This document shows positions 3,793 to 31,106 of a stretch of DNA of 40,053 bases, one piece after another. Source of the DNA: Aquipuribacter hungaricus. GTDB lineage: Bacteria > Actinomycetota > Actinomycetes > Actinomycetales > JBBAYJ01. The stretch is from positions 1 through 40,053 of the forward strand of contig NZ_JBBEOI010000011.1 of NCBI RefSeq assembly GCF_037860755.1, written 5' to 3'. Position 1 is the first letter of the stretch, and each line of letters begins with the position of its first letter. The translations under genes and the position numbers were made by a program. A model generated the notes under the pieces. The model was not told where the DNA came from. It was given only the letters and a program-made list of their open reading frames with translations, and did not search any database.

Positions 3793-3829
3793 CCCCACCA
3801 GCAGTGACCCCACCAGCAGTGACCCGGCG
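3786..3829 (+). repeat. 15-bp tandem repeat at the DUF4913 stop codon
   Basis: GCAGTGACCCCACCA occurs at 3786-3800 and 3801-3815, and a third, partial copy starts at 3816. The TGA at 3790-3792 inside the first copy ends the DUF4913 gene, and each later copy carries the same TGA. Confidence 0.8.
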
Positions 3830-3865
3830 CACCTCACCGGCACGCCACCTTGAGAGGACGTGAGC

Positions 3866-4669
3866 ATGAGCGAGAGCGCCGAAGACGAGATCGGCCAGGA
3901 CGTGGACCGGCTCGTCCGGTCCGCCCTGATGGCCGCCGGGCAGATCCGCGAGCACGCCGCGCGCCACAGCCAGACCGGTGCCTGGGCGCTGCAGCAGCAG
4001 CAGAGCGCCGCCGTCGCCGAGCACCGTGAGACCACCCGCCTGGTCTACGACCGGGTGCGCCGTGAGGAGTTCTGGAACCAGGCCACCCCAGCCCAGGTCG
4101 CCGACCTCGTGACCTTCACCACCGCCGTCGCACCGCACGACGCCCTCGGGCGCGAGGCCCACGACGTCATCCGCGAGCAGCTGCACGCCCGCCACGGCAT
4201 CGACCTCGCCACGATCACCGCCGCGCACGACGACCCCGCAGACCGGCGCAACGCCCTCATGCACGCCCTCGACGACCGCGCTGCAGCGCGCCGCGAGGAC
4301 GCCGAGCTCCGCGGCTCGGGCATGGGCCGCGGCGACGACGGCGCCCAGGCTGCCACCGCCTCGAACGGCGTCGGTGGCGCACCCACGGCCTCCGCCGAAG
4401 GTCCTGACGCCGCCTCTCAGCCAGCTGCCGCTCCCGACCTCGCCATAGCCACCGCGGGACGCGTCGACGCATCGTCGACCGAGCACACCCGTACGGCTGA
4501 CGAAGGGCTCGCTGGCGTCTCGTCGGCCGCGGCGCAAGCACGCCGTGAGGCGGCCACGAGTTTCCCCCAGTCCGCGAGCTCGACGTTGCGCGACGGCGGC
4601 AACCGCCCCACCAAGCCCGCCGCGCCCGGCCACGGCCCCCGCGACCGCGTCCCCGAACTCACGCGCTAA
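3866..4669 (+). CDS. Coiled-coil protein of the conjugation operon, function unknown
   Basis: Protein of 267 residues from the ATG at 3866, which is favoured because AGAGG at 3853-3857 is correctly spaced for it. A GTG at 3860 would sit too close to that ribosome binding site. The N-terminal half is helical, Gln- and Arg-rich and probably coiled coil (SALMAAGQIREHAARHSQ, ALQQQQSAAVAEHRE). A conserved-looking segment follows (RVRREEFWNQATPAQVADLV, then ARHGIDLATI). The C-terminal ~110 residues are Ala/Ser/Thr-rich and probably disordered. Similar proteins, as I recall, occur in actinobacterial plasmids next to coupling proteins and may handle relaxosome or channel contacts, but that role is inference. 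It is the last gene of the plus-strand transfer block. Confidence 0.75.
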   Translation: MSESAEDEIGQDVDRLVRSALMAAGQIREHAARHSQTGAWALQQQQSAAVAEHRETTRLVYDRVRREEFWNQATPAQVADLVTFTTAVAPHDALGREAHDVIREQLHARHGIDLATITAAHDDPADRRNALMHALDDRAAARREDAELRGSGMGRGDDGAQAATASNGVGGAPTASAEGPDAASQPAAAPDLAIATAGRVDASSTEHTRTADEGLAGVSSAAAQARREAATSFPQSASSTLRDGGNRPTKPAAPGHGPRDRVPELTR

Positions 4670-4716
4670 GCACCCCCGCTGCCCTTCCGGCGCAGCAGCT
4701 GCCCTACAAGATGTCG

Positions 4717-4755
4717 CCGGGGTGAGTCGATCAGCCTCGTGAGGCGCCACCCCGG
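4717..4755 (+). terminator. Hairpin between converging genes (candidate terminator)
   Basis: CCGGGGTG at 4717-4724 pairs with CACCCCGG at 4748-4755 across a 23-base loop. It lies ~50 bases past the end of the transfer operon, and the next gene converges. No T-run follows, so termination is uncertain. I see no gene in the rest of 4670-4997. Confidence 0.35.
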
Positions 4756-4997
4756 GGCCAAGCCGGGTTGCCTCGAGCAGGAGAGCTGGCACGTTCTGAC
4801 CCTTAGCGAGACGTGGGCCGGTAGCCGCAGGCCCGACGGTCGCCTCGCCTGGAAGTGGCCCCACCCGTAGCAACATCCGTCCGCTCTGTTGTGGGTCCGC
4901 CATCACTGCCTAGTCGTAGCCGTGGAGTTGGTCAGCAGAGCCCAGCCCCTCTGCCGTCAGGGACCGGGCTCACTGACTGCCGGGTGCGTGGGCGAAC

Positions 4998-5429
4998 TCA
5001 GGCCCGGGTGTCGACTCGGGTGACGGGGCTGCCCCCGGTGAGGTAGTCCAGCGCCTTGCTGATCATGTCCTGGAAGGCTTGCCCGCTGTCGTCGCCGACA
5101 CGGAGGAGGAGGGCGTGGAAGTAGTCAGGGGAGACGTCGCCCTCGATAGCCCCCCGCTGCCGGTCGGCCATCAGCTGCATGGCGAGCTGACCCGCCGCCA
5201 TGGCGTCGTCTCCGCTGAGCCCTTCCAGCCCGTGGAAGGTCATCGAGTCACCCTGGGTGGTGACCGTCATGCCGAAGGTGTTGAGCAGGAAGCTCCGGTC
5301 GGATCCGGTCAGCGCGCCGACAAGTGATGCCGAGGTGTGAAGAGGCGGAGCCGGCTGTGCTGCCCTCGTACTCGGGGCCTCGCTGGTGCGCCCGACGTGC
5401 GGCATGGGCATGGTGCTCGAAATCTTCAC
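4998..5429 (-). CDS. Conserved-looking hypothetical protein
   Basis: Protein of 143 residues read from a GTG at 5429, preceded by a strong GGAAGGAG ribosome binding site 9 bases upstream, which fixes the start. After a Pro/Ala-rich N-terminus (~35 residues) comes a compact domain. It contains SLVGALTGSDRSFLLNTFGM, a Gly/Asp-rich turn, MAAGQLAMQLMADRQRG and SPDYFHALLLRVGDD, and ends with a helix, QAFQDMISKALDYLTGG. No signal peptide, membrane helix or catalytic motif is evident. It lies downstream of the relaxase on the same strand, separated by a stretch with gene debris. I do not recognise the family. Codon use and the ribosome binding site make it a convincing gene. Confidence 0.75.
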   Translation of the reverse strand: MKISSTMPMPHVGRTSEAPSTRAAQPAPPLHTSASLVGALTGSDRSFLLNTFGMTVTTQGDSMTFHGLEGLSGDDAMAAGQLAMQLMADRQRGAIEGDVSPDYFHALLLRVGDDSGQAFQDMISKALDYLTGGSPVTRVDTRA

Positions 5430-5466
5430 GGGGCGGCTCCTTCCTGCAGGGCACTATCGGCAGGTG

Positions 5467-5625
5467 TCAGGGCCGGATGAAGCCGGCGGTGATGCGGTCG
5501 TCCGCGCCGTAAAAGTCCTCGCGCGCACCGTGATCACGATGCGGTCACCCTCGTAGAACTCACGCGCACGTCGAACTCGAAGCCCACACCGCTCTCGCCA
5601 CGGTTGCGTGTACCGGGACTTCCTG
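5467..5625 (-). pseudogene. Degenerate gene remnant with two frameshifts
   Basis: Three short protein-like segments lie end to end on the minus strand in different frames. They are TRNRGESGVGFEFDVR (near 5610-5565), REFYEGDRIVITVRA (near 5565-5518) and EDFYGADDRITAGFIRP, which ends in a TGA at 5467-5469. One-base shifts would join them into one sensible acidic/aromatic C-terminal domain. No intact start was found, and the relaxase gene ends at 5666 just upstream. I read this as a decayed small gene. Sequencing error is an alternative, and the parent family is not recognised. Confidence 0.4.
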
Positions 5626-5665
5626 CTCGTCGACGAGGCTCCTACGCCCTGGGGTGCGGGCGGCG

Positions 5666-7201
5666 TCAACCGCGCTCGAGGTCGCCATCGGCGCGCGGAC
5701 CCTTGCCGCGTCCGGTCAGCAGGTCCGTCTGCGAAGGCTCGATCCTCGCGCGTCCGGCGCCGGCGAGCTGTGACACGGACCGCATGGCGGCGTGCATGGA
5801 CGCGTCCGTCGCGGCCGCCGCCTGGACGCGGCCCTGAGCCCGCTGGGCGGCAGCGACGGCCTTGGCGGTCCGGTCGGCCTGGCGCAGCACCGCCAGCCAA
5901 CCAGTCCTCGAATCACGACCCGTCCCCCGGCCCATCAGACGCAAGCTGTAAGCAGCGTTGGCGGCCGACGACTCCTGCTTGTGCTGGTCCCGGTCCGCCC
6001 CGAAGGCGACCGGCTGCGCCGCGCGCGCCAAGACCTCCGACGCCGCCGCCAACGGTCCCGGCCGGTCCTTCTCGATAGCCAGCGACGCCCGCGCCAGCGC
6101 CGCCGCCGCAGCACCCGCCGCGGCACGGTCCTCGGCCGCGCTGCTGCGGTCGCGGTAACCCCCGAGCACCCGACCCGCCCGCACCGGAGCACCGGTCGTC
6201 CGCACCGTGGTGGCCACGTCACCGCCGGCCCACCGGCGCGTCCACAGCCCGGCCACGTCCTCGGCCCCGGCCGGGTCCTGACCCCACCGCGTGCGCAGCT
6301 GGCCTAGGCTCAGCGTGCGATCCAACCGGCCGGCGCCGTACCAGACCGGTGCCGCCCGTCGACCGTCCCGCTCGAGCGACACCAGCGCGACGGAGTACCC
6401 GACCACACGCTGCCGGTCGCCCTCGGCGTAGCGGGGCCGGACCAGCACACGAGCGTCCCGCAGCCCGTCGACGAGCTCCCGCTCACTTCCTGCCTCGGCG
6501 GCCACCGCCCTGACACGACGCCGCAGCTCGTCCCGGGCGGGTGCCAGGGCCGTTTCGCGCTGCGCCCGCGCGAGCTCCGCCGGCTTCACACCGACCGCGG
6601 CTCCGCGGCCGCTCTCACGGGACTCCAGCACCCTCAGCCCGTGCCGGCGCTCAAGGAGGTTCGCGGCGCGCTGCGCCCGTGCCGCATCGTTGTGGACGCG
6701 CGCCTTGGTCCCGTCTTCCCGCACCAGGTTGACCACGATGTGCACGTGGTCGTTCCCCGCCGTGGAGCGACCATGGTGCACCGCCAGCCACCGGCAGGCG
6801 GCACGCTCGCTCGTGCCGCTGAAACCCATCTCGTCCACGAACTCGGTCACAACCCGGGACCACACCTCGTCACCGATCTGACCCTCGTCCGCACGCAGCG
6901 ACAGCGAGCAGTGCCACACGTGCGCCGGCTTGGTACCGACCTGGACCTGCGCCTGCGCCTCGTCGCTCCACTGCTTCACCGGCGCGCTCACCTTCGTCCC
7001 GAACACGCGCATCGGGTGGTCCAGCAGGTTCGCCGCGTCCAGCGCGTCGTCGCTCGACAGGCGCCCCTCCGGTAGCTCCGACACCAGCGTGTCGTGACCC
7101 GCGACCACGTGCGGGTTGACGTGCTCGTTGTGCCTCCCCGGCCCCACCAGGTACACCGTCACGCCCGCGGTCCTGCCGCCGCGGGTGATGTTCGGCATCA
7201 T
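5666..7201 (-). CDS. Relaxase/mobilization nuclease (MobP/VirD2-like)
   Basis: Protein of 511 residues that should nick the element at oriT and stay covalently bound to the transferred strand. The N-terminal relaxase domain (about 1-200) carries YLVGPGRHNEHVNP near residue 17, a candidate for the catalytic-tyrosine region. It also has HVWHCSLSL at 94-102 and the metal-binding three-histidine motif at 142-157 (HHGRSTAGNDHVHIVV), followed by an asparagine and a RxxxLERRHGLRVLESR segment. The C-terminal ~300 residues are Arg/Ala-rich and helical. The start overlaps the stop of the mobC-like gene by ATGA, so the two are coupled. The family is clear; the exact MOB class and nucleophile are inferred. 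Confidence 0.9.
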   Translation of the reverse strand: MMPNITRGGRTAGVTVYLVGPGRHNEHVNPHVVAGHDTLVSELPEGRLSSDDALDAANLLDHPMRVFGTKVSAPVKQWSDEAQAQVQVGTKPAHVWHCSLSLRADEGQIGDEVWSRVVTEFVDEMGFSGTSERAACRWLAVHHGRSTAGNDHVHIVVNLVREDGTKARVHNDAARAQRAANLLERRHGLRVLESRESGRGAAVGVKPAELARAQRETALAPARDELRRRVRAVAAEAGSERELVDGLRDARVLVRPRYAEGDRQRVVGYSVALVSLERDGRRAAPVWYGAGRLDRTLSLGQLRTRWGQDPAGAEDVAGLWTRRWAGGDVATTVRTTGAPVRAGRVLGGYRDRSSAAEDRAAAGAAAAALARASLAIEKDRPGPLAAASEVLARAAQPVAFGADRDQHKQESSAANAAYSLRLMGRGTGRDSRTGWLAVLRQADRTAKAVAAAQRAQGRVQAAAATDASMHAAMRSVSQLAGAGRARIEPSQTDLLTGRGKGPRADGDLERG

Positions 7202-7596
7202 GCGTCGGCTCCCAGCGCGTCGAGCACCCGGTGGACCCGCGCGCTGGTGGCGCGTACCGCCGCCAGGGTGCTCGCCAGGTCCTCCTGCACCTCGCGGGTC
7301 GCGTTGGTGGCCTTCGCGACCTGGTTGACGTTGTTCGACACCGCACCCAGGTAGCCGCGCACCCGGAACAGCTCCTCCAACGCCTCACGGCGGTCCGTGG
7401 CCGTCTCCCCGTGCTGGGCCAGCGCCGCCTCGATCAGCAGCCGGGGCACGGAGATCCGTGCCGCCTCGGCCCGCTGTGCCAGCACCGCCTCTTCCTCCGG
7501 TGTCACGAGCACCCGGTGCGAGTGCTTCCGGCCACCCTCCACGTTGGCGCGACGGCGTCGACCCAGCGCCCGCCGGCGCGGTGTCTCCTCGCTCAT
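7198..7596 (-). CDS. mobC: MobC-like relaxosome accessory protein
   Basis: Protein of 132 residues. A basic N-terminus (RRRALGRRRRANVEGGRKH) is followed by HRVLVTPEEEAVLAQRAEAARISVPRLLIEAAL, a ribbon-helix-helix-like segment. Then comes the MobC signature region LFRVRGYLGAVSNNVNQVAKATNA and a C-terminal helix. In known systems such proteins bind oriT and help open the duplex for the relaxase. It is immediately upstream of, and translationally coupled to, the relaxase gene, and it starts beside the predicted oriT, where it may also repress its own promoter. Function rests on motif and context, and both agree. Confidence 0.85.
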   Translation of the reverse strand: MSEETPRRRALGRRRRANVEGGRKHSHRVLVTPEEEAVLAQRAEAARISVPRLLIEAALAQHGETATDRREALEELFRVRGYLGAVSNNVNQVAKATNATREVQEDLASTLAAVRATSARVHRVLDALGADA

Positions 7597-14898: not shown

Positions 14899-15744
14899 TC
14901 AGCCGGTGGACCCGACGATGGCGCGGGCGGTCTCTGCGGGGGCGCTGACGTGGGGGCAGTGTCCGCTGGCGTCCATGCGCAGCAGCGTGCTGCCGGGGAC
15001 GGAGTCGTGGACGAAGCCGACGGCCGACGGCGGCGCCAGGGCGTCGTGGCGGCACTGCAGGGTCAGCGTCCGGGCGCGCACCGCCGCCAGGTCGTCGCGG
15101 TGGTCGGAGGTGAACAGCACCTGCGCGAAGTGCGCGGCGACTCCGGGGTCGGTGCGGCAGAACGCGGCCGCGAGCCGCTCCCCCAGCTCGGGCCGGTCGG
15201 CGTTACCCATGATCATCGGCGCCGTGACAGCGGACCAGGCGAGGTAGTTGTGCCGCAGGGAGACCAGCAGCTCCGCCACGTCCTCCACGCTGAAGCCGCC
15301 CACGTAGCCCGTCTCGGGGTCGTCGAGGTAGCGGGCCGAGGGTGCGACGAGCACGAGCCCGGAGGCGAGGTCCGGGCGGGCGGCGGCGGCCAGGGCCACG
15401 ACCGTGGCGCTCACGCTGTGCCCGACCAGGGTGGCACCCCGCAGACCGTGGGCGTCGCAGACGTCCAGCAGGTCCTGCGCGTGCCCGTGCAGGGTGCCGT
15501 GCCGCTCGATCGACCGGTCGTAGGCGGACACGTCCGAGCGCCCGGCACCGGCCAGGTCGTAGCGCACCACCCGGTACCGGGACCCGAGCTGCTGCACCAC
15601 CGGCTGCCACACCGTCTGGTCCGAGCCGAACCCGTGGACCAGGACCACCGTGGGCAGCTCCTGCGCCCCGGACACCGTCACGTGATGGCGCACCAGGACG
15701 TCGACCGACCGCGACGCCGGTGCCAGGGTGGTGCGACCTGGCAT
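14899..15744 (-). CDS. RsbQ-like alpha/beta hydrolase
   Basis: Protein of 281 residues from the ATG at 15744, with a strong GGAGGAGAGGGG upstream. The sequence follows Bacillus RsbQ and its relatives KAI2/D14: VVLVHGFGSDQTVWQPV, VVRYDLAGAGRSDVSAYD, AQDLLDVCDAHGL, then the nucleophile elbow GHSVSA. It continues through APSARYLDDPETGYVGGF, FCRTDPGVAAHFAQVLFTSD, TLTLQCRHDALAP (Asp) and ASGHCPHVSAPAET (His), so the Ser-Asp-His triad is complete. RsbQ is needed for energy-stress sensing by the PAS phosphatase RsbP. No RsbP is adjacent here; instead a chemoreceptor gene lies upstream on the same strand. The substrate is unknown. Confidence 0.88.
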   Translation of the reverse strand: MPGRTTLAPASRSVDVLVRHHVTVSGAQELPTVVLVHGFGSDQTVWQPVVQQLGSRYRVVRYDLAGAGRSDVSAYDRSIERHGTLHGHAQDLLDVCDAHGLRGATLVGHSVSATVVALAAAARPDLASGLVLVAPSARYLDDPETGYVGGFSVEDVAELLVSLRHNYLAWSAVTAPMIMGNADRPELGERLAAAFCRTDPGVAAHFAQVLFTSDHRDDLAAVRARTLTLQCRHDALAPPSAVGFVHDSVPGSTLLRMDASGHCPHVSAPAETARAIVGSTG

Positions 15745-15790
15745 GGCTGTCCCCTCTCCTCCGGTTGCCGGCAGCGCGGCATCTTTCGGT

Positions 15791-15817
15791 ACGTCGGCGA
15801 GCCCCCCGCAGACATGA
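15791..15817 (-). promoter_or_regulatory. Sigma28-like promoter of the RsbQ-like gene
   Basis: On the minus strand, TCAT (15817-15814), 15 bases, then GCCGACGT (15798-15791), about 47 bases before the ATG. Compare the sigma28/WhiG consensus TAAA-N15-GCCGATAA. It is weaker than the chemoreceptor promoters. Confidence 0.4.
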
Positions 15818-15985
15818 GCGTCACGGGAAGCCTCGGCAACCCTGTCGAGCACCGACCGTGGTCGTCGACGCCCCTGTCCCGCAGCGGCACGTCCCGAGGG
15901 CCGTCCACGTCGTGCGCCCCGACCAGCCCGACCAGCCCCGTGGTCCTGGTGGGTATCGCTGGCCTGGTGGTTCCGGCCGGTGCGC

Positions 15986-17578
15986 TTAGAGGGTGAAGGT
16001 GGCGACGGTGGCGGTGAGGTCGTCGCTGAGGGTGGTGAGGCCGCGGGTGTGCTCGGCGCTGGTCTGGGCCTGGGCGGAGGACTGCTCGGCGGCGGCGGCG
16101 ACGGCGGTGATCCCGGCGCCGATCTCCGCGGAGCCGGCAGCGGCCTCGGCCAGGGACCGGCCCATCTCGCTGGTCGTCGCGGTCTGCTCCTCCACCGCGG
16201 AGGCGATGGTGGTCTGGATGTCGTTGATCCGGTCGATCGTGGCCTGGATCGAGCCGATCGCGGTGACGACGTCGCCGGAGTCGGACTGGATCGCCGCGAC
16301 CCGCTTGCCGATGTCCTCGGTGGCCTTGCTGGTCTGGGAGGCGAGCTCCTTGACCTCGGTGGCCACGACCGCGAAGCCCTTGCCGGCCTCGCCGGCCCGG
16401 GCGGCCTCAATGGTCGCGTTCAGGGCGAGCAGGTTGGTCTGCTCGGCGATGGAGGTGATGACCCGGACGACCTCACCGATGAGCTGGCTGGACTCGCTCA
16501 GCCTGGCCACGATCTGGTTGGCGTCGCTGGCCACGGTCACCGCGTCACCTGCCACGGAGGCGGCCTCCTGGGCGTTCTGGGCGATCTCGCGGATGGACTG
16601 GCCCATCTCCTCCACCCCGGCGGCGACGGTCTGCACGTTGCGGGTGACCTGCTCCGCGGCGGCGGCGACGACGTTGGCCTGCTGGCTGGACTCGTCCGCG
16701 GCCGCGGCGACCTCCGCGGTGCCGGAGTGCAGCTGCTCCGCGGCACCGAGCAGCTGCCCGGCACCGGCCTGCACCTGGCCCAGCGACTGGCGCAGCTGGA
16801 CCGCGAGACCTGTCACGGCGGTGCCGATCCGGCCGACCTCGTCGGTGCGCCCCAGCTCGGCGCTGACGCGCAGGTCACCCGCAGCGAGGGTCTCCAAGGC
16901 GGTGACCATCGAGCGCAGCGGCGGGGCGGTGAGCCGGTACAGGACCAGGCCCGCGCCGCCGGTGAGCAGCGCACCGATCACGACGCTGAGCCACAGCACG
17001 AGGCTGGTGATGTCGCCCAGGCTCGCGACCCGGGCCTCGTCGGCGGCGAGCAGCTCCGCCATGTCGGCCTTCACCCCGGCCAGCACCTCGTCCGTGGCGG
17101 CGGCGGCCTGCGCGACCTGGGTCTGGGCCGTGCTGGAGACGGTGTCCCCGGCGGTCCCCTCGGTGGTTGCGGACTCGACGACGTCCTCGTAGGCGGTGAC
17201 GGCCTGGACGGCGCTGTCCACGAGGGCGCGGCGGTCCGGGCGCAGGTCGAGGGCCTCCAGGGCCTGCACCGCCTCGGCGGTCTCGGCGCGCGTGGCCGCG
17301 ACGCGGTCGCCGGTGCGCGCCGGGTCGCCGGCCACGACCGCCTCGTCGACCGTCGCGCGGTGCTCCACGACCAGGCGGCTCACCTCTCCCAGCGCGATCT
17401 CCGCCTTCGCGTCGACCCGGAAGTCGGCGTTGCCGACCGTGCGGATGTCGCTGACGTGCTGGTTGGCGACCGCGATCGCTACCAGGACGGCCACGGTGGT
17501 CCCGATCAGGACGGCGATCTTCACCGCCAGCGACCAGCTGGCGATCCCACGGGACCTGGTACGACGGACATCAGACAT
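15986..17578 (-). CDS. Membrane methyl-accepting chemotaxis protein
   Basis: Chemoreceptor of 530 residues. A membrane helix lies at about 18-40, and a four-helix-bundle-like external domain covers ~41-190. A second helix ([23 protein letters not shown], ~191-213) follows, then a HAMP domain ([20 protein letters not shown], to ~265). The long cytoplasmic signalling domain contains the conserved hairpin [20 protein letters not shown] then [17 protein letters not shown]. It should control a CheA-CheW complex. No cheA is in the window, but a triple-CheW protein is 2 kb upstream. The start ATG at 17578 lies ~50 bases after a sigma28-like promoter. The external domain carries no recognised ligand motif. 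Confidence 0.93.
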
Positions 17579-17629: not shown

Positions 17630-17656
17630 ACATCGGCACCAGCCGGCAGCACCTGA
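17630..17656 (-). promoter_or_regulatory. Sigma28-like promoter of the membrane chemoreceptor gene
   Basis: On the minus strand, TCAG (17656-17653), 15 bases, then GCCGATGT (17637-17630). It shares GCTCA-G and GCCGAT-T with the four-PAS receptor promoter. Confidence 0.55.
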
Positions 17657-17752
17657 GCCGTTCCGTCAGCGCAGACCACCCCGGTCTCGTCCTCCCCGCA
17701 GACGCACCGAGCTCTCCATCGACGCGCCCCGCCACCGCCACGCCGCCACCTG

Positions 17753-17772
17753 CCCCCCCCCCCCCCCCCCCC
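17753..17772 (+). repeat. Homopolymer of 20 C
   Basis: An uninterrupted run of 20 C lies between the small-protein gene (ending 17875) and the chemoreceptor gene, about 100 bases upstream of the chemoreceptor's sigma28-like promoter. Such runs slip during replication and are also error-prone in sequencing. Confidence 0.85.
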
Positions 17773-17874: not shown

Positions 17875-18144
17875 TCAGGGGGCGGTGGTGGTGCCGTCCT
17901 GGGTGGCGGCCAGCTGCACGGCCAGCGCCTGCAGCACGGTCGTGTAGTGCCCGGGCGTCGCCCGCTCCAGCTCACGCTCCTGGAACTGGTCCGCAGCCAG
18001 CAGGGCGCAGAACATGGCGACGTCCCGGGCCCGGGCGAGGTCCATGTCCTCGCTGAGCAGCGCCAGCGCCTCGGTGTCCTGCCGCAGCGCAGCCAGCATC
18101 AGCGCCACACCGTCACGCGTGCTCGGGTTTCTCGAGACAAGCAT
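17875..18144 (-). CDS. Small helical protein, paralogue of 23932-24195
   Basis: Protein of 89 residues from the ATG at 18144, with AGGAGGGG 6 bases before it. It aligns without large gaps to the protein encoded at 23932-24195. Shared blocks are STRDGxAL, AAxRxD, VAxFCAxLAADQ, xARPGHY-like (ATPGHY here) and LQAxAxQLAA. It is predicted to be all helical and soluble, with one conserved Cys in FCA. Both copies lie directly upstream of a chemoreceptor gene on the same strand and have sigma28-like promoters, so a role in chemosensory signalling is the natural guess. No known domain is recognised. Confidence 0.8.
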   Translation of the reverse strand: MLVSRNPSTRDGVALMLAALRQDTEALALLSEDMDLARARDVAMFCALLAADQFQERELERATPGHYTTVLQALAVQLAATQDGTTTAP

Positions 18145-18217
18145 GCTGCCCCTCCTGACTGTTGAGGCCGGGCCGGGCCGGGCAGCAGGCACACCACCAC
18201 GTCCGGCTGTCGACCTC

Positions 18218-18244
18218 CTCTCGGCACGCCGCCACGGGCACTTA
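18218..18244 (-). promoter_or_regulatory. Sigma28-like promoter of the 89-residue gene
   Basis: On the minus strand, TAAG (18244-18241), 15 bases, then GCCGAGAG (18225-18218). CTTTTAAG is a rare AT-rich patch here. I see no gene in the rest of 18245-18520. Confidence 0.45.
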
Positions 18245-18520
18245 AAAGCGCGACGGGCCCGCCTCGCGCACCCGTCGTCTCGGCTGCGGGCTGGCTGGGT
18301 CTGCCGGCCGTACCCGCCGGGGGGGCCTCGCGCTCACCCGTTAGGTCCCGTCATGGCGGCCCGGTGGGTGCCGATGACGGTGGTGACGCCGTGCACCGTG
18401 CGCGGCGCTGAGCTAGGAGCACCGATGTCTCGCCCGAGCGCGGCCGACTTGCCCGAGCTGCCCGAGCTGTCCGGGTGGTCCCTGGAGCGGCCCCGCGGCG
18501 GCCTCCCCGGCCCGCCGGCC

Positions 18521-19192
18521 TCATAAGAACGGGGGTGCCGCTTCCCGGGTAAGACCGCTCTGTTCGTCGTGGTGCTTCCTGCAGCGGTCCTTGCCGTGAC
18601 GCGGGGCCTCGCAGCCCCGCACCGAGCACAGCTCCGGCACGGCCGGGCCGGGGGCTGCGGTGGCGGTCGGGTCGCCGTGGCGCCGCCACGCCTGGTAGTG
18701 CCGCCTGCACCAGCCGCGCGTGACCGCCACCGAGGTGCACGCCTCGACCGCGCAGGCAGCGGCGGGGGGCGGCGGCCGCAAGGATCCAGCGCCCTGGCCC
18801 CTGGCGATCTGACGTGCGTGCGCCCTGCACCAGCCCTTGCTGTCGTGGGGTCGGGGACATCCCTGGACCGCGCACTCGTCGCGGCCTGGCCCTGGTCCGG
18901 CCGGCAGCACAATGTCCGGGTCCCCGTGCCGCCGCCACCGTCGGTAGTGCAGCCGGCAGTAACCCTTGGCGCTGTGGGGGCGGGGGCAGTCCGCCGCGGC
19001 GCAAGTGCGGGGCGCCTGCGTCTGTCCTGGCGCCGCCCCCCGCCGCCACTGCTGGTAGTGCGCGGCGCAGTAGCCGCGACCCTTCTGCGGCCGGGTGCAT
19101 CCGTCGACCGAGCACCCCGAGGTGCCACCCGAGGTGCCACCCGATGTGCCATCAGAGGTGCCACTGGTTGTGCCCGCTGTCGGGGTGGGCAC
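18521..19192 (-). CDS. Protein with five C-x4-C-x9-C-x2-H zinc-finger-like modules
   Basis: Protein of 223 residues from the GTG at 19192, with GGAAGGAG upstream. After a TSG-repeat N-terminus it contains five evenly spaced modules that start at Cys27, 64, 107, 147 and 189. Each keeps exactly C-x4-C-x9-C-x2-H, and several continue as HYxxWRRxGDP. An example is CAAADCPRPHSAKGYCRLHY. Single modules of this kind occur, as far as I know, next to HNH endonuclease domains and in small phage or actinobacterial proteins, and probably bind one zinc and DNA or RNA. No HNH or other catalytic domain is present here. Linkers are Gly/Pro-rich. It lies between the chemosensory genes but without a sigma28-like promoter. 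Zinc binding is inferred. Confidence 0.8.
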   Translation of the reverse strand: MPTPTAGTTSGTSDGTSGGTSGGTSGCSVDGCTRPQKGRGYCAAHYQQWRRGAAPGQTQAPRTCAAADCPRPHSAKGYCRLHYRRWRRHGDPDIVLPAGPGPGRDECAVQGCPRPHDSKGWCRAHARQIARGQGAGSLRPPPPAAACAVEACTSVAVTRGWCRRHYQAWRRHGDPTATAAPGPAVPELCSVRGCEAPRHGKDRCRKHHDEQSGLTREAAPPFL

Positions 19193-19432
19193 GCGCTACC
19201 AGCTCCTTCCACCGGCTCACTCAAGGGTTCGTCGAAGGTCGTCGGGAGGGAACGTCGGGGGTCGTCTGGCACGGGCAGAGGGACCCGGTGGTGGAGCGTA
19301 GATGTCGCTGCCTGTCGCCGGCGGCGCCGGCGTGTGTGCCCAGGTCGGGGGTGTCACCTGGAGCGGCACGGTCGGCCGGTCCCACGCCGGCGACCGGCCT
19401 GTCGAGCAGGACGGCATGCAGAGCCCCGGCGG

Positions 19433-19503
19433 GGGCCACAGCAGGGCCACAGCAAGGCCACGGCAGGGCTACGGCAGGGCCACGGCAGGGCTACGGCAGG
19501 GCC
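19433..19503 (+). repeat. 11-bp minisatellite spanning the triple-CheW stop codon
   Basis: Six copies of an 11-bp unit (GGGCCACAGCA to GGGCTACGGCA) at 19433-19498 plus a partial seventh. The minus-strand stop TAG of the CheW gene (19491-19493) exists only because one unit has CTA where others have CCA. I see no gene in 19193-19490. Confidence 0.8.
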
Positions 19504-21422
19504 CCGTTCTCCACTGCCGACGCCAGCAGCCGCAGGTCCAGGCGCGGGAGGAGCTGGGTCTCCTGGCCCAGGCGGACCAGCTGCGCCTGCTGCAAGAACG
19601 CCCGAGGGGGGCGGGGGAGCGCCCCTGGGCCTGGACGACCCAGTCGGCCCGGTCGGCCCGGTCGGCCCGGTCCGGTCGCCGGGAATGCTTGCGTCGGGGC
19701 CGGCTTGTCGCTCGGTGCATCCGGGCCACACCCCGGGACGTGCTCGGGGTCGGCCCATGCCACGGTCTCGATCCGGTCCAGCCCGCCGACCACGAAGCCG
19801 ACCATCCCGTGCCGTGCTCGGACCAGGAGCAGGCACGCGGTCGCGCCCGGCTGGCACGGCCCAAGCCCGAGCTGCTGCGACAGGTCCAGGACGGGGACCG
19901 CCGCGCCCCGGTGCGCGAACAGCCCCAGCAGGGCAGACCCGGGACGAGCAGCGCCGCCCGGGGGCGGCTCCATGGTTCGGCGATGGTCCTGGGCCGGGAC
20001 GCCGACGCCGACGCCGACGCCGCCGGGGCTACCGGTACGGATGAGCTTGGCCTGGTATGGCACGACCTCGCTGACCTGCTCCAGCGGGGTGACGGCCCGG
20101 ACCCCGCACTCGTAGGCCAGGTGGGGTCTGGCGTCCTGGTGGCCGGTGACGTCGCCGGCCCCGCCCGGGCGGCGCTGACCGGGCCCGGGCACAGGGCCGG
20201 CACCAGGACTCGCGCCGGGTGTGGCATCAGGGCTGGCGGCGAGGGTCACGTTGACCGAGGCCATGCTCAGCAAGGTGCTGTGGGCCAGCAGGGCCTGACC
20301 GTCCAGGACGAGGCCGGCCGGCCGGCCAGGGACGTCCAGGAGCCCGGCGAACAGCTCGGGGGCGGGCAGGGCGAACGGGTGCACCGGCAGGACCTGCCCG
20401 GGGTCCACCTCCTGCAGGTCGACCAGCTCGTCCAGCGCCATGACGACGTACCCGGTCCCGAGGTCCATGACCAGCCCGGCCGTGTGCTCCGGGACCCGGT
20501 CCAGGCGGCCGAGGCCGAGCAGGACGAGGGGGTCCACGACCGGTACCTCGAGGCCGGCGTACTCCACGACCCCCAGGCACAGCTCGCTGGTGAGCACCGA
20601 GGTCGTCGGGCGCACCCGCGGCAGGGTGGTGTGCACGTGCGCGACGTCCAGGGCCAGGGCGTGCTCTCCGGCCCGAACCAGGGTCAGCACCCTCGTCTCG
20701 GACTGGCCCGGGCGGCCCGGCGACGCTGCGACAGATCCCATGCTCGGACTTCTGTCCATGGGGGACGTGGCCGGGACCGGTGCGCTCTGCCCCCGGCCAC
20801 GGTCGGGGATGGTTGGGATTCCGGTGCTCTGGAGCAGGACGCCGACGTCGAGGACACTCACGACACGGTCGGTGTCCGCGTGGTGAAAGGCACCGGACAG
20901 CAGCAGCGCCCCCTGCTGGGTGCGGACATCCTGCACCAGCAGGGCAGGGACCTGCCCGACGCCGCGCAGCTCGTCGACCAGGAGCCCGACGAGGCGCTCG
21001 GCATGGGCGACGACGACGACGAACCGCTCACTGACCTCAGCCTCGTTGCCCGGTTCACCCGTTGGCCCCGGGGCGGCTTCCAGCGCCCCGTCCAGCAGGA
21101 CGCCCAGGTCGACGACGGGTAGGACGGTCCTGCGTAGGTGCATGGCACCGAGGACGGCTGGTGCGGTCGTGGGCAGAGGGTCCAGCCGCTGCGGGCAGGG
21201 CACGACCTCCCGCAGCACGGCCAGCGGCAGGGCGATGTCGATGCCCTGTACGCGCAGCAGACCGAACACCGTGCCCGCCGTGTCCGCCGCCGCCTCAGGC
21301 GTCGTGCCGATGGCGGCACCTGCGTCTGGGCTCGGCGGGCTGGGGTGTGCGGGTCCGTCGGCCGGCAGGAGGGTGCCTGGTCCCGGCACGGTCTGCGTCC
21401 CGGCGGGGCTGAGCGTGCTCAC
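19491..21422 (-). CDS. Protein with three tandem CheW-like domains
   Basis: Protein of 643 residues from a GTG at 21422, three bases after the four-PAS chemoreceptor stop, so it is co-transcribed and translationally coupled. Domain 1 (~52-205) has VFGLLRVQGIDIALPLAVLREVV and VLPVVDLGVLLD. Domain 2 (~245-395) has VLTLVRAGEHALALDVAHVH and VPVVDPLVLLGLG. Domain 3 (~430-600) has YECGVRAVTPLEQVSEVVPY and GAAVPVLDLSQQLGLG. CheW couples receptors to CheA; chains of three are rare and could cross-link arrays. Linkers are Pro/Gly-rich, with a GVGVGVGVP run and GRPGRPGRLGRPG, both encoded by tandem repeats. The C-terminus ends inside an 11-bp minisatellite. Domain 3 is the most divergent. Confidence 0.85.
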   Translation of the reverse strand: MSTLSPAGTQTVPGPGTLLPADGPAHPSPPSPDAGAAIGTTPEAAADTAGTVFGLLRVQGIDIALPLAVLREVVPCPQRLDPLPTTAPAVLGAMHLRRTVLPVVDLGVLLDGALEAAPGPTGEPGNEAEVSERFVVVVAHAERLVGLLVDELRGVGQVPALLVQDVRTQQGALLLSGAFHHADTDRVVSVLDVGVLLQSTGIPTIPDRGRGQSAPVPATSPMDRSPSMGSVAASPGRPGQSETRVLTLVRAGEHALALDVAHVHTTLPRVRPTTSVLTSELCLGVVEYAGLEVPVVDPLVLLGLGRLDRVPEHTAGLVMDLGTGYVVMALDELVDLQEVDPGQVLPVHPFALPAPELFAGLLDVPGRPAGLVLDGQALLAHSTLLSMASVNVTLAASPDATPGASPGAGPVPGPGQRRPGGAGDVTGHQDARPHLAYECGVRAVTPLEQVSEVVPYQAKLIRTGSPGGVGVGVGVPAQDHRRTMEPPPGGAARPGSALLGLFAHRGAAVPVLDLSQQLGLGPCQPGATACLLLVRARHGMVGFVVGGLDRIETVAWADPEHVPGCGPDAPSDKPAPTQAFPATGPGRPGRPGRLGRPGPGALPRPPRAFLQQAQLVRLGQETQLLPRLDLRLLASAVENGALP

Positions 21423-21425
21423 GGG

Positions 21426-23678
21426 CTAGGCCTGCTCACCGGTGGACAGCTGGCTGATGAGGGTGTTGACCTGCTGGGACGCGGCCTGCTGGACCCGGGT
21501 GGACTCTGAGATCGTGGCGATGGCCTGGCGGGTCTGCTCGACGCTGGTGACGATGCGCTTGAAGGCGTCCTCAGCGCGCTGGGACACGTCCGCGCCCTGG
21601 TCGACCCGGGTGGCGGACTGCTTGATCAGGTCCCCGATCTGCTGGGCGGCCTGGGAGGAGCGTTCGGCGAGCTTGCGGACCTCGCCGGCGACGATGGAGA
21701 ACCCCACGCCGTGCTCCCCGGCGCGTGCGGCCTCGATAGAGGCGTTGAAGGCGAGGAGGTTGGTCTGGCTGGCGATCTCGCCCATGACCCGGACGATCTC
21801 GCCGATCTCGCTGGAGGAGCTCTGGATCAGCCCGATCGCCTCCAGGGAGGCCTGCAGCGCCTGCACGCCCTGCTGGGCGTTGTCGTGGGTCTGCGCGGCC
21901 AGGGACGTGGCGGTGGTGGAGTTGATGGCGATGTCCTCGATGGACCCGGCCAGCTCCCGGACGCACGCGGTCATGTCCTGCGTCCCCTGCGCGACTCGCT
22001 GCTCCTGCTCGACCTGCGCGCTGACGTCGTAGGCGTACTTGACGATCTTCACCGGCGCGCCGTTGAGGTCGAGGATCGGGTTGTACGTGGCCTGGATGTG
22101 CACGTCGCGCCCGTACTTGCCGACCCGGTGGAACCGGCCGGCGATGACCTCGCCCTTGCCCAGGCGCAGCCAGAAGTCCCGGTACTCCACCGAGCGGGTG
22201 TACTCCGGCGTGCAGAACGTGCTGTGGTGCTGACCGACGACCTCCCGCAGGGAGAAGCCCATCACCCGAAGGAAGTTCTCGTTGGCGTGCAGGACCACGC
22301 CTTCCAGGTCGAACTCGATCGCTGCCTGGGCGCGGTCCACGGCGTCGACCCGGGCCTGGACCTCCGCGGAGCGGACCTTGGCCGCGGTGACGTCGCTGGC
22401 GAACTTGACCACGCTGACCGGTACCCCGTCGGGGTTCATGATCGGGTTGTAGGAGGCCTGCAGCCAGACCTCCCGGCCGTCCTTGGTGAGGCGCTTGTAC
22501 TCGCCGGTCTCGAACTCCCCCGCCCCGAGCCGCTCCCAGAACTCCCGGTACTGCCCGGTCTCGGCGTGGCCGGGCTCGCAGAACATCCGGTGGTGCTTGC
22601 CCTGGACCTCGGCCAGGGAGTAGCCCATCGTCTGCAGGAAGTTGCTGTTGGCGGTGAGGATCGTCCCGTCCAGGGAGAACTCGATGACCGCCTGGGACCG
22701 GTCGATCGCGGCGACCTTGCCGAGGAACTCCGCGGTCCGGGCCTTGGCGACGGTGATGTCGGAGGCGTACTTGACGACCTTCACCGGATTGCCGTTCGGG
22801 TCCATGATCGGGTTGTAGGTGGCCTGCAGCCACACCTCCCGCCCGTCCTTCGCGACCCGCCGGAACTCCCCGGACAGGAACTCCCCCCGGCTCAGGTCGT
22901 CCCAGAACTCCCGGTAATCCGCCGAGGCGGTGTACTCCCGGTCGCAGAAGATCCGGTGGTGCTTGCCCTGCACCCCCGCCAGCGTGTAACCCACGGTGTC
23001 CAGGAAGTTCCGGTTCGCGGTCAGGACCCGCCCGTCCAGGGAGAACTCCACCACCGCCTGGGAGCGGTCCATCGCCGCGACCTTACCCAGGAACTCCGCC
23101 GCCGTGGCCTTGGACTCGGTGATGTCGGAGGCTAACTTCACGATCTTCACGACCGTGCCGTCCTCGGCGATGACCGGGTTGTACGTGGCCTGCAACCACA
23201 CCGGCTTGCCGCCCTTGGCCAGACGGGAGAACTCCCCGGACTCGAACGCCCCACCGGCCAGGCTGTCCCAGAACCGCCGGTACTCCTCCGAGGCCGCCAG
23301 CTCCGCGTCGCACAGCACCCGGTGGTGCTGGCCCTGCAGCTCGCCCAGCCGGTACCCGACCACGTCCAGGAAGTTCCGGTTCGCGGTCAGGATCACACCG
23401 GAGGGGTCGAACTCGATGACCGCCTGCGACCGGTCGATCGCCTGAGCCAGACCCCGCAGCCCCACCAGGTCCACCGAGTCCACCAGCTCACCAGCGCTCA
23501 GCGTCCGGCCACCCGAAGGAGCGGTAGCACCGTCGGGAGCGACAGGGACGGCAGAAGAGGCCACGGCAGGAGCGGTGGGGGCGATGGGGGCGGGGGTGCT
23601 GGACCCCGGTGCCCTGGGGGCGGGTGCAGTGCGGGCCGCAGCCCCGGTCGAGACGGGACGGTCGGGTGCAGTGGGCAT
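21426..23678 (-). CDS. Soluble chemoreceptor with four PAS domains
   Basis: Protein of 750 residues with no membrane helix. After a Pro/Ala-rich N-terminus (~65 residues) come four closely similar PAS units at about 75-190, 197-310, 318-432 and 440-555. Each has AxxDRxQAxIEF, ANxNFLxxxGYxLxEVQGxHH then xFC, a WLQATYNPI-type strand and VKIVKxASDIT. This is the Aer/BdlA-like PAS_3 arrangement, which often binds heme or flavin. The C-terminal ~190 residues form a short signalling domain with IASQTNLLAFNASIEAARAG then EHGVGFSIVAGEVRKLAERSS. It is followed at once by the triple-CheW gene. The cofactor is unknown; the near-identity of the units points to recent duplication. The ATG at 23678 has GGAGC upstream. 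Confidence 0.92.
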   Translation of the reverse strand: MPTAPDRPVSTGAAARTAPAPRAPGSSTPAPIAPTAPAVASSAVPVAPDGATAPSGGRTLSAGELVDSVDLVGLRGLAQAIDRSQAVIEFDPSGVILTANRNFLDVVGYRLGELQGQHHRVLCDAELAASEEYRRFWDSLAGGAFESGEFSRLAKGGKPVWLQATYNPVIAEDGTVVKIVKLASDITESKATAAEFLGKVAAMDRSQAVVEFSLDGRVLTANRNFLDTVGYTLAGVQGKHHRIFCDREYTASADYREFWDDLSRGEFLSGEFRRVAKDGREVWLQATYNPIMDPNGNPVKVVKYASDITVAKARTAEFLGKVAAIDRSQAVIEFSLDGTILTANSNFLQTMGYSLAEVQGKHHRMFCEPGHAETGQYREFWERLGAGEFETGEYKRLTKDGREVWLQASYNPIMNPDGVPVSVVKFASDVTAAKVRSAEVQARVDAVDRAQAAIEFDLEGVVLHANENFLRVMGFSLREVVGQHHSTFCTPEYTRSVEYRDFWLRLGKGEVIAGRFHRVGKYGRDVHIQATYNPILDLNGAPVKIVKYAYDVSAQVEQEQRVAQGTQDMTACVRELAGSIEDIAINSTTATSLAAQTHDNAQQGVQALQASLEAIGLIQSSSSEIGEIVRVMGEIASQTNLLAFNASIEAARAGEHGVGFSIVAGEVRKLAERSSQAAQQIGDLIKQSATRVDQGADVSQRAEDAFKRIVTSVEQTRQAIATISESTRVQQAASQQVNTLISQLSTGEQA

Positions 23679-23716
23679 GTGCGGGCTCCAGCTCGGATCG
23701 TTGGACGTTGAGCCTC

Positions 23717-23743
23717 AGATCGGCCGCGCACGACAGACCTTGA
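23717..23743 (-). promoter_or_regulatory. Sigma28-like promoter of the four-PAS receptor operon
   Basis: On the minus strand, TCAA (23743-23740), 15 bases, then GCCGATCT (23724-23717), ~38 bases before the ATG. It matches the TAAA-N15-GCCGATAA consensus at 3/4 and 6/8 positions. Confidence 0.6.
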
Positions 23744-23931
23744 GCCGGACCGGCGAACCGTCCAATCAGGTGCCGAGAAGCGTTCGAGGCGGACCGATCG
23801 CCGAAAGGAACCGGGGTGGAGAACGGGGGGAATTCGGGGGAGGTCGACATCCCCCCTGTGACGTGGCGACTCGTCGCCGGGGTCACCGCCGAACGAGACC
23901 GCCGAACGACACCGCCGGCGAGTTTCGGGCG

Positions 23932-24195
23932 TTAGAGCATGGTGCGGCCGCTGGCCGCCAGCTGCAGCGCCACCGCCTGCAGGGCGTCGGCGTAGTGGCC
24001 GGGCCGGGCAAGGCTGGCTTCGGCGGCCTTGAGCTGGTCAGCTGCGAGGAAGGCACAGAACACGGCCACCTCCTGCGTCTGCTTCGGCGTCATCTGCTCC
24101 AGCAGCACAGCCACCGCTGCGGGGTCGGTCCGCATGGCGGCCATGACCAGGGCGATCCCGTCGCGGGTGCTTGAACCCGTGGGTACGACGCTCAT
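23932..24195 (-). CDS. Small helical protein, paralogue of 17875-18144
   Basis: Protein of 87 residues, MSVVPTGSSTRDGIALVMAA onward, with VAVFCAFLAADQL and LARPGHYADALQAVALQLAA. It shares these blocks with the 89-residue protein at 17875-18144, and like it sits just upstream of a chemoreceptor gene on the same strand. Its ATG overlaps the stop of a 21-codon frame that has its own good ribosome binding site, so translation is probably coupled. It is soluble and helical, with one conserved Cys and a PGHY motif. No known domain. The duplicated gene-receptor arrangement suggests a receptor-linked function. Confidence 0.8.
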   Translation of the reverse strand: MSVVPTGSSTRDGIALVMAAMRTDPAAVAVLLEQMTPKQTQEVAVFCAFLAADQLKAAEASLARPGHYADALQAVALQLAASGRTML

Positions 24196-27771: not shown

Positions 27772-28350
27772 TCACGAGCGGTCAGTCCTCGGGGCGCAGG
27801 ACCTCTTCATAGGCGGGGGCCAGCCTGGCTGCAGAAGACCCATGCCGACCCCTCGGACGACGTGACGCCCCTCCAGCAGCCGCATGATGAGGGGGTACGT
27901 CTGCCTGCCCTCGCCGACCGGCAGGACGTGACGACCCCTGTCGTCGACGGGGAGGCCGTCGAGGTCGAAGACGACGACCACCTCCAGGTCTGGGGCGACG
28001 AAGCGCGGCCTCGTGCCGATCCCGTAGCGGACCCCGCGCTGGCCCTCCACCAGACGTTCGACGGTGCGGCGCACCGCCCTGCATCCGCACGCATGCCACA
28101 GCCAGTGGGTCGGCGCCGCCGACGCCAGCTGCCGGGCGAGGTCGTCACGGTCTACCTCGACCAGCTCGAGGACCTCCGCGTTGGAGGAGATCCACTCCTG
28201 CACGACCGCCAGACGAAACACCGGGTCCAGCCCGCCCCACGCGGTCTCGAAGCTCCCGCTCAGCGTGGCCTCCAGCCACACCAGCGCCGCCAGACCCGGA
28301 GCCACCACGGCAGCAGCCGACTTGTACGCGCTCAGCTCGTCCTCCGGCAT
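27772..28350 (-). CDS. Hypothetical protein with HACGC motif
   Basis: Protein of 192 residues from the ATG at 28350; the longer open frame upstream is not supported. The N-terminal half is helical (MPEDELSAYKSAAAVVAPGL, AALVWLEATLSGSFETAWGG, AVVQEWISSNAEVLELVEVD). The middle has THWLWHACGCRAVRRTVERL, and the C-terminal half is strand-rich (VVFDLDGLPVDDRGRHVLPV, YPLIMRLLEGRHVVRGVGMG). There is no signal peptide or recognised catalytic motif, and I do not recognise the family. A TACAGT box 8 bases before the ATG suggests a leaderless mRNA. It is divergent from a GGDEF-EAL gene, with four 19-bp repeats in between. Confidence 0.7.
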   Translation of the reverse strand: MPEDELSAYKSAAAVVAPGLAALVWLEATLSGSFETAWGGLDPVFRLAVVQEWISSNAEVLELVEVDRDDLARQLASAAPTHWLWHACGCRAVRRTVERLVEGQRGVRYGIGTRPRFVAPDLEVVVVFDLDGLPVDDRGRHVLPVGEGRQTYPLIMRLLEGRHVVRGVGMGLLQPGWPPPMKRSCAPRTDRS

Positions 28351-28358
28351 GAAGCGTG

Positions 28359-28364
28359 ACTGTA
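28359..28364 (-). promoter_or_regulatory. Leaderless-type -10 box (TACAGT)
   Basis: TACAGT on the minus strand ends 8 bases before the ATG at 28350; a TTG-containing -35-like region lies upstream. Confidence 0.4.
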
Positions 28365-28471
28365 GGACGCAGGTGGCTCCACAACCCCGACACGGATCAG
28401 CACCTGGAGTAGGGAACCGCGCAGCTGTCCCCGCGACAACAACCGTGCGAGAGAGCAGGTGGACGTGATCT

Positions 28472-28547
28472 GCCGTGCGGAGTGGTTCCTGCCGTGCGGA
28501 CTGGTTCTGGCTGCGCGGGCTGTTTCTCGCCGTGCGGACAGGTTCTT
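28472..28547 (+). repeat. Four 19-bp tandem repeats in a divergent promoter region
   Basis: Units at 28472-28490, 28491-28509, 28510-28528 and 28529-28547, consensus GCCGTGCGGACTGGTTCT-. They lie between the divergent starts at 28350 and 28612. The near-two-helical-turn period would place copies on one DNA face, as in a regulator-binding array. Confidence 0.7.
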
Positions 28548-28561
28548 GCTCGTCGGCGGGG

Positions 28562-28589
28562 TGAAGGGGCGGTGCTGGTGTGCCGATGC
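28562..28589 (+). promoter_or_regulatory. Possible sigma28-like promoter of a GGDEF-EAL gene
   Basis: TGAA (28562-28565), 16 bases, then GCCGATGC (28582-28589). The -35 part is poor. It would start transcription just before the GTG at 28612. Confidence 0.3.
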
Positions 28590-28611
28590 ATCGCGGGTGG
28601 AGCGTGCGACC

Positions 28612-30414
28612 GTGGTCCCGGAGGTGGCGACGCCGCCGCTGATGGCGCGTACCGCCGGGGTGTTCTACTGCGCCGGGGGGCTGGCGGCGCTGGCCGTGGC
28701 CGTGGACCTGCCGCGCCCGTTCGCTACCACGACGACCGTGCTGGTCGGGCTGGCGGTGCTGTCGTTCCTGACTGGCGCGCTGCTCCTGTGGTGCGGGCGG
28801 CGGCTGCCGCACCACGCCTACCACGCCGTGGTGGTGTACGGGACGGTCGTCCTGACCGCCGCGGTCATCCTGTGCCCGACGCCGGGCGCGGCGCTGACCG
28901 TCGCCTCGCTCAACACGTTCGTGGCCATCGACGCATTCCTGTTCTTCTCCTCCCGCACGGCCAGCCTGCACCTTCTGGCCATGCTGTGCGGGCAGGCGGT
29001 CGCGCTGGGCACCCACGACGAGCTGGGCACAGGTGCCGTGGTCTCGGCGTCCCTGGTGTGCCTCGCCGTCTCCGTGGTCGTCGGGCCCCTGGTGCGGCGC
29101 GCCTCCAGCGCCAGCCGCGACAGCCTCACCGGGCTGCCGAACCGGCGCGGGTTCGACGACGCCCTCGAGGCGGCCCTGGCCACGGCCTCCCGCACCTCAG
29201 AGGCTCTGTCGCTGGCGCTGGTGGACGTCGACCGGTTCAAGGCGGTCAACGACCACGGTGGCCACGCCGCGGGTGACGCGCTCCTGCAGACGCTGGCCGC
29301 GCGCTGCGCCGCCGCGCTGCCCCCGGGCGCCCTGCTGACCCGCCACGGCGGCGACGAGTTCGCGGTCATCCTGCCCGCCACGACCGCCGTGGCGGCCCTG
29401 CAGGCCCTGGAGGTCATGCGGACCTCCATCACCGAGCACGGCCTGTCCTGCGGGGTCGCGCAGCACCACAACACCGAGAGCGGGGCCGACCTGCTGCGTC
29501 GCGCCGACATCGCCCTGTACGCGGCCAAGGCAGCCGGTCGCGGCTGCTCCAGGCTCAGCGCCACCCAGACCGACCACCTCGCCGATGACCTCGCCGCCGC
29601 GATCAACGCCGGCAGCATCGACGTGGCCTTCCAGCCGATCGTCGCCCTGCCCTCACGGCGCGTGGTGGGCGTGGAGGCACTGGCCCGCTGGGAGCACCCG
29701 CGGCGCGGCACCGTGCCCCCCTCGGAGTTCGTGCCGGCCGCCGAGGCGAACGGGCTCATCCACGACCTTGGCGCCATGGTCCTGGCCCAGGCCTGCCAGG
29801 GCGCCCTCGACCTCCAACGGGCGTGGGGCACCCGGCTGCTGCTGACCGTCAACGCCTCCGGCCGGGAGCTCGCCGACCCCGGCTACGCCAGCACCGTGCT
29901 CGCCACGCTGCTGCACGAGGGCTGGCCAGCCCCTCAGCTGGTCGTCGAGATCACCGAGAGCCTCATCGAGGGCGCCAGCACGCCAGCCCTGCACACCCTC
30001 ACTGAGCTCCGCAGCCACGGCATCGCAGTCGCGATCGACGACTTCGGCACCGGGTACTCCGCCTTCAGCCGCCTGGACACCCTGCCCGCCGACTACCTCA
30101 AGCTGGACCGGTCCTTCATCTCCACCATCACCACCAGCCCCCGACGCCTCGCGATGCTCCGAGCCCTGCTCGACCTCGGCGACCGCCTAGGGCTCACCGT
30201 CATCGCCGAAGGCATCGAGACCACTGCACAGGCAGAGCTGCTCACCAGCGCCGGCTGCCCGCTCGTGCAGGGCTACCTCTACGGCCGACCGGGCCCCGCC
30301 GCCTCCTGGACCACGGTCCCGACCACACCGTCGGCACCTCAGCCCCGCACTCACGCCCAGGCACACGCCCAGGCGTCTTTTCAGGCGGCTGTCCCCCCCG
30401 GCAGGCACCCCTAG
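28612..30414 (+). CDS. Membrane GGDEF-EAL protein (c-di-GMP synthesis/breakdown)
   Basis: Protein of 600 residues from the GTG at 28612, preferred because GGTGGAG lies 9 bases before it. The frame is open from 28459, but that part encodes the 19-bp repeats; ATG at 28642 is another option. The N-terminal ~150 residues contain about five membrane helices. The GGDEF domain has DSLTGLPNRRGFDDAL, VDVDRFKAVND and an intact GGDEF at ~246-250. The EAL domain has VGVEALARWEHP (EAL from ~355), TVNASGRELAD, VVEITESLIEG, AIDDFGTGYSAFSRLD, LKLDRSF and VIAEGIETTAQ, with key acidic residues present. Both activities are therefore possible. The C-terminal tail is Ala/Gln/Pro-rich. Confidence 0.9.
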   Translation: MVPEVATPPLMARTAGVFYCAGGLAALAVAVDLPRPFATTTTVLVGLAVLSFLTGALLLWCGRRLPHHAYHAVVVYGTVVLTAAVILCPTPGAALTVASLNTFVAIDAFLFFSSRTASLHLLAMLCGQAVALGTHDELGTGAVVSASLVCLAVSVVVGPLVRRASSASRDSLTGLPNRRGFDDALEAALATASRTSEALSLALVDVDRFKAVNDHGGHAAGDALLQTLAARCAAALPPGALLTRHGGDEFAVILPATTAVAALQALEVMRTSITEHGLSCGVAQHHNTESGADLLRRADIALYAAKAAGRGCSRLSATQTDHLADDLAAAINAGSIDVAFQPIVALPSRRVVGVEALARWEHPRRGTVPPSEFVPAAEANGLIHDLGAMVLAQACQGALDLQRAWGTRLLLTVNASGRELADPGYASTVLATLLHEGWPAPQLVVEITESLIEGASTPALHTLTELRSHGIAVAIDDFGTGYSAFSRLDTLPADYLKLDRSFISTITTSPRRLAMLRALLDLGDRLGLTVIAEGIETTAQAELLTSAGCPLVQGYLYGRPGPAASWTTVPTTPSAPQPRTHAQAHAQASFQAAVPPGRHP

Positions 30415-30625: not shown

Positions 30626-30724
30626 CCCGGCCCACTCGTCGTCAACCGTCGAAGGCTGAAGCGGGCGGGACAGCCGACAGCGCCAATCGGACGGTGAGCC
30701 GGCGGCTGCGCCGGCGAGATCGGC

Positions 30725-31009
30725 TCAGCCGAGCGTGCGAGAACCGAAGAGCAGCACCTCGCGCTCCATGTCGTAGTAGGCCTCGTCGCTGGCCGTCAGC
30801 CAGTCGAACAGGTTGTCGGCGTCGTCGACGGTGACGCTGAGGACGACCTCGCTGGCGCCGTTGTCAAGGACGAGCTGGAACAGGTAACTGCCGGGCTCCC
30901 CGGCCCCGGACGGAGAGAAGTTCGGCTGCCAGGCAGTGACCTTCCGGGTCTTGATGACGCTCTTGCCGAGGTCGCTGGCGCCCGCACCCTGCTCAGTTGA
31001 GGTAGTCAT
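30725..31009 (-). CDS. Conserved-looking 94-residue hypothetical protein
   Basis: Read from the ATG at 31009, with TAGGACG upstream. After a short Ser/Gly-rich start, the sequence SVIKTRKVTAWQPNFSPSG, SYLFQLVLDNGASEVVLSVT and DDADNLFDWLTASDEAYYDM then EREVLLFG suggests a small alpha/beta fold of strands followed by a helix, with a high Asp/Glu and aromatic content that is unlike random frames. No signal peptide or active-site motif is seen, and the family is not recognised. It is flanked upstream by a 10-bp inverted repeat and a 17-bp tandem repeat array and converges with the GGDEF-EAL gene. Confidence 0.7.
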   Translation of the reverse strand: MTTSTEQGAGASDLGKSVIKTRKVTAWQPNFSPSGAGEPGSYLFQLVLDNGASEVVLSVTVDDADNLFDWLTASDEAYYDMEREVLLFGSRTLG

Positions 31010-31033
31010 GCCGTCGTCCTACCCACCAGCCGG

Positions 31034-31106
31034 ACGCACATCCCCGCGGCGCGCCTCTGAGTCATGCGTGGACTGATAGGACAACTGGTGATGCCCGGAT
31101 GTGCGT
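31034..31106. repeat. 10-bp perfect inverted repeat upstream of the 94-residue gene
   Basis: ACGCACATCC (31034-31043) is the reverse complement of GGATGTGCGT (31097-31106), with 53 bases between. This could be paired regulator half-sites. Confidence 0.4.

Follow-up and report, generated by a model that had tools for sequence, protein, structure and literature searches.

A family of small proteins encoded directly upstream of chemoreceptor genes in Aquipuribacter hungaricus

Small genes A, B and C and the receptors that follow them

The window analysed here is a stretch of 40,053 nucleotides of an Aquipuribacter hungaricus contig. On its minus strand lie small gene A (23932..24195), coding for a predicted four-helix cytoplasmic protein of 87 residues, and its paralogue, small gene B (17875..18144; 89 residues). 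Both open reading frames were found where a first-pass annotation of this DNA had placed them, and their products indeed share the motifs that it had quoted (STRDG.AL, VA.FCA.LAADQ, PGHY and LQA.A.QLAA). A BLASTP alignment of the two proteins spans 80 residues, of which 51% are identical (E 2e-26). A search of the whole genome returned exactly one additional copy, small gene C (contig C6:44300-44569), the product of which shows 65% identity to A and about 47% identity to B.

The GC content of the small genes per codon position (about 0.73/0.50/0.89) matches the usual pattern of the host. A and C differ at 11 first, 20 second and 42 third codon positions, so that third-position changes dominate, and dN/dS is about 0.28 for the A-C pair, 0.43 for A-B and 0.65 for B-C. 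As judged from these substitution patterns, the small genes are under purifying selection. In addition, DNA similarity between the loci is limited to the coding sequence, starting at the start codon when A is compared to C, while the flanks are dissimilar and were not copied along. Taken together, the codon-position changes, the dN/dS values below 1 and the confinement of similarity to coding DNA indicate that A, B and C constitute a true protein family.

Pfam gave no match to A or B at E values up to 1, nor to any of the four members (including the distant relative described below) at E values up to 10, and no significant match to the small proteins was found in NCBIfam, PHROGs or PDB sequences. 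Searches of the published literature turned up no account of a protein of this kind. The proposal of an undescribed family holds. Structural models of A (mean pLDDT 75) and B (mean pLDDT 64), computed from an alignment of just two sequences, are entirely helical, each with four helices, and this medium-confidence modelling suggests a helical fold for the family, which would contrast with the beta-barrel of CheW-type coupling proteins. Fold searches with both models yielded no significant structural relative, the Z values of up to 7 being within the chance range for helical bundles. Reading of the sequences revealed no evident transmembrane segment or signal peptide.

As first reported, A and B each lie directly upstream of a chemoreceptor gene on the same strand, and the third copy, C, occupies the same position; the gaps between small gene and receptor measure 253 bp (A), 296 bp (B) and 192 bp (C). 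The claimed difference in sensor design between the two receptors of the window was also borne out. Specifically, receptor A (21426..23678, minus strand; 750 residues) consists of four PAS domains followed by an MCPsignal domain, with no HAMP match, whereas receptor B (15986..17578, minus strand; 530 residues) carries an N-terminal membrane sensor, a HAMP domain and an MCPsignal domain. Directly after receptor A lies a gene for a triple CheW-like domain protein (19491..21422, minus strand), which gives a strong CheW domain match; no cheA was seen in the window. A minus-strand open reading frame (18521-19192) located between the genes of the triple CheW protein and of small protein B encodes about five CxxxxC...CxxHxxxWRR-like repeats, and its product looks like a small zinc-binding repeat protein. 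Downstream of receptor B, the C-terminal part of the product of 14899-16410 (minus strand) resembles, by eye, the alpha/beta hydrolase RsbQ.

Ten MCPsignal matches, corresponding to ten receptors, were counted in the 4.3-Mb genome. All three small genes precede a receptor, and three of the ten receptors carry a small gene; a related small open reading frame was sought around the other seven and none was found, not even beside the receptor adjoining cheA-cheW on contig C110. By a size-based estimate of roughly 4,000 genes, it is very unlikely that three random genes would each land before a receptor. The three linkage events need not be independent, since receptors B and C are paralogues with 85% identity over the cytoplasmic part. 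Receptor A shares only 39-46% identity with receptors B and C over 116-136 residues of the signalling part, and with designs so dissimilar a simple co-duplication fails to explain all three pairs. The closest pair is A-C among the small proteins and B-C among the receptors; the two rankings disagree, and strict pairwise co-evolution is not apparent. The high similarity of the cytoplasmic parts of receptors B and C (15986-16970), set against that of the corresponding small proteins, raises the possibility of gene conversion of the signalling domain.

Promoters between the small genes and the receptors

The genome encodes flagellins, and a CTCAGG-N14-GCCGAT site is common to the flagellin genes of the host genome and of its two congeners, with a close variant ending in GCCGAA in a fourth species; the cheA genes show TTAAGG and CTAAGG variants of this sigma28-type site. 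A sigma28 matrix was built from an independent set of flagellin, cheA and receptor sites, using 250-bp genomic chunks as background. At each of the three loci, strong CTCAR-N15-GCCGAT sites appeared in the gap that separates the small gene from its receptor: the sigma28-type promoter of receptor A (CTCAA-N15-GCCGAT) maps to 23719..23744 on the minus strand, downstream of small gene A, and that of receptor B (CTCAG-N15-GCCGAT) to 17632..17657 on the same strand, downstream of small gene B. Matrix scores in these gaps range from 16 to 22, values reached by at most 0.6% of the 250-bp chunks, whereas upstream of the small genes they are just 5-9.5, and 20%, 6% and 31% of the chunks reach the best upstream score of A, B and C, respectively. 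A sigma28-like promoter for each small gene, as first suggested, is therefore at odds with these data: the strong scores fall in the gap and not upstream, and the motility promoters belong to the receptor genes. Because the receptor has its own strong promoter after the small gene, the two genes need not be co-expressed.

The same arrangement bears on the idea that the downstream receptor gene is under the control of the small protein or of its translation, in the manner of a leader gene or small regulator. Such control would fit the constant 5' position of the small gene and a receptor promoter located just after it in three of three loci. We consider it unlikely, as no DNA-binding domain was recognised in the small proteins with Pfam, scans of the region for sigma70-type promoters and terminators found nothing, an Rfam search of the region gave no match, and the receptor promoter looks like a standard sigma28-type element shared with flagellin.

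The gap that separates small gene B from its receptor contains an uninterrupted run of 20 C (17753-17772; 20 G on the coding strand), located about 95 bp before the sigma28 site of the receptor. In 118 kb of other DNA of the same genome, the longest C or G run is 9. The tract is possibly phase-variable, or possibly an assembly artefact.

Distribution of the family and a distant relative

About 1,300 genomes were sampled; the large searches at the phylum, class and order levels scored 13 first-look candidates per genome, and contigs were scanned with short exact peptide patterns, which would miss relatives of about 50% identity; the resulting family counts are for these reasons lower bounds. 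One credible distant relative emerged, in a genome of another family of the same order (G063). It scores 33 bits, compared to a best value of 12 bits among 2,000 shuffles, and is 40% identical to C over 70 residues, its start codon being putative. No copy was present in the two congeners, even at an E value of 1, or in 11 other sampled genomes of the family to which G063 belongs. A tblastn search of phages and plasmids gave no match, and the short exact peptide patterns matched IMG/VR and GTDB contigs without revealing relatives. Weak matches in five further genomes (G321, G272, G242, G084 and G604) were rejected: those inspected covered part of the profile only or ran across other genes in another frame, and two of the five contain stops. 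The repeated linkage to mcp/cheW genes that had been anticipated across motile actinomycetes is thus not what we observed, the family being absent from the congeners and from nearly all of the genomes sampled.

The G063 relative lies directly upstream, on the same strand, of a gene whose product reads as a membrane PAS-GGDEF-EAL protein. This neighbour lacks a receptor tip with which CheA or CheW could interact, and no domain is common to all four neighbouring sensory proteins; G063 encodes 14 receptors, none of them in the 12-kb stretch examined at the small-gene relative.

These observations weigh on the role first proposed for the small protein, a component of the chemoreceptor array or an adaptor binding the receptor tip, CheW or CheA. 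The linkage to receptors of two designs, with the signalling domain as their only common part, speaks for it. Against it, neither the core cheA-cheW-receptor locus nor the congeners, which have this core system too, carry a copy; A, B, C and the G063 relative gave no match to the CheW-like domain PF01584, while the triple CheW protein of the window matches it strongly. Since seven of ten receptors, including the one next to cheA-cheW, do without a copy, the small protein is not a general array component, and the GGDEF-EAL neighbour in G063, together with the lack of a copy in the core chemotaxis locus, disfavours a structural element at the receptor tip. A specific array or adaptor role is accordingly not favoured, and we rate it as rather improbable; of the original proposal, the new family and its non-random receptor linkage stand, while the general array function does not. 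In conclusion, A, B and C represent a real, undescribed and apparently rare small-protein family with a genuine linkage to sensory genes.

A proposed accessory of the adjacent sensory protein, or possibly a passenger

The reading that we prefer, with a probability of a little under 0.4, is that of a lineage-restricted, soluble, all-helical family encoded 5' of sensory-output genes and acting as an accessory of the neighbouring sensory protein. The identity of the partner would follow from gene position: three chemoreceptors of two unrelated sensor designs and, in another genus, one PAS-GGDEF-EAL enzyme. Through helix-helix contacts, the small protein might modulate the assembly, stability or signalling of its own neighbour, rather than serve as a universal array brick. 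This reading is supported by the position of all three copies directly upstream of receptors, in a 4.3-Mb genome with just ten of them, and by the finding that the G063 relative again directly precedes a sensory gene. Against it stand the seven receptors that do without the small protein, the 192-296 bp that separate the small genes from the receptors, the receptor's own promoter, the lack of pairwise co-evolution and the absence of a domain common to the four neighbours.

In a rival reading, the small gene has a function of its own and came to adjoin receptors through a common past of mobile or duplicated accessory segments. Genes resembling those for a T4SS coupling protein, a relaxase and MobC were recognised by eye in the window (11-7596), which probably belongs to a conjugative or mobilisable element carrying receptors and CheW. 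Moreover, other paralogous pieces are common to the contigs of A/B and of C, receptors B and C are themselves paralogous, and the congeners do not possess the family. Such a passenger origin has to contend with receptor A, which is no recent copy of receptors B and C, with the dissimilar DNA flanking the small genes, and with the G063 relative, which also adjoins a sensory gene. We regard it as possible, although doubtful; the accessory reading is the best single one, with a passenger on accessory DNA close behind.

To our knowledge, few accessory proteins are dedicated to a subset of receptors, and most of these derive from CheW. ParP, an array-localising accessory of Vibrio, integrates into arrays through its C-terminal part (PMC5706961); as a non-core protein working with chemoreceptors and CheA, it offers a model for receptor accessory action, whereas the proteins described here are about 88 residues long and all-helical by prediction, and lack a family match. 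FrzB, a divergent CheW of Myxococcus xanthus, serves one chemosensory system without binding its CheA (PMC6952110). It is likewise a small accessory of a chemosensory system, but is CheW-like, while the small proteins have no PF01584 match. CheV is a coupling protein that combines a CheW-like domain with a receiver domain and acts on some of the receptors only (PMC12691637); service to a subset is the shared trait, but neither of its domains is matched in the small proteins.

If the accessory reading is true, a lineage-restricted protein that is not of the CheW type, linked to receptors of two designs and, in a relative, to a GGDEF-EAL gene, would imply that sensory systems recruit orphan helpers; if the small protein is a passenger only, it represents an undescribed orphan family of local interest. 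At present, we consider the family of modest interest. A broader proposal, that these proteins are a new kind of small helical adaptor, encoded 5' of a sensory partner (a chemoreceptor or a GGDEF-EAL enzyme) and linking chemotaxis to cyclic-di-GMP sensing in some actinobacteria, appears to us a long shot.

The paralogous pieces shared with contig C6 comprise two further protein-coding segments. A minus-strand gene (30725-31009) encodes a protein of 94 residues with no Pfam match and a nearly identical copy on contig C6, the DNA identity being 91% over 317 bp (30724-31040). A second orphan family, with a product starting MPED..., occupies 27785-28318 in the minus-strand frame of the 27772-29016 open reading frame, and is duplicated on contig C6 with 77% DNA identity. 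In addition, the window and contig C6 end in the same 63 bases (39991-40053 in the window), which suggests that both contigs break at one repeat.
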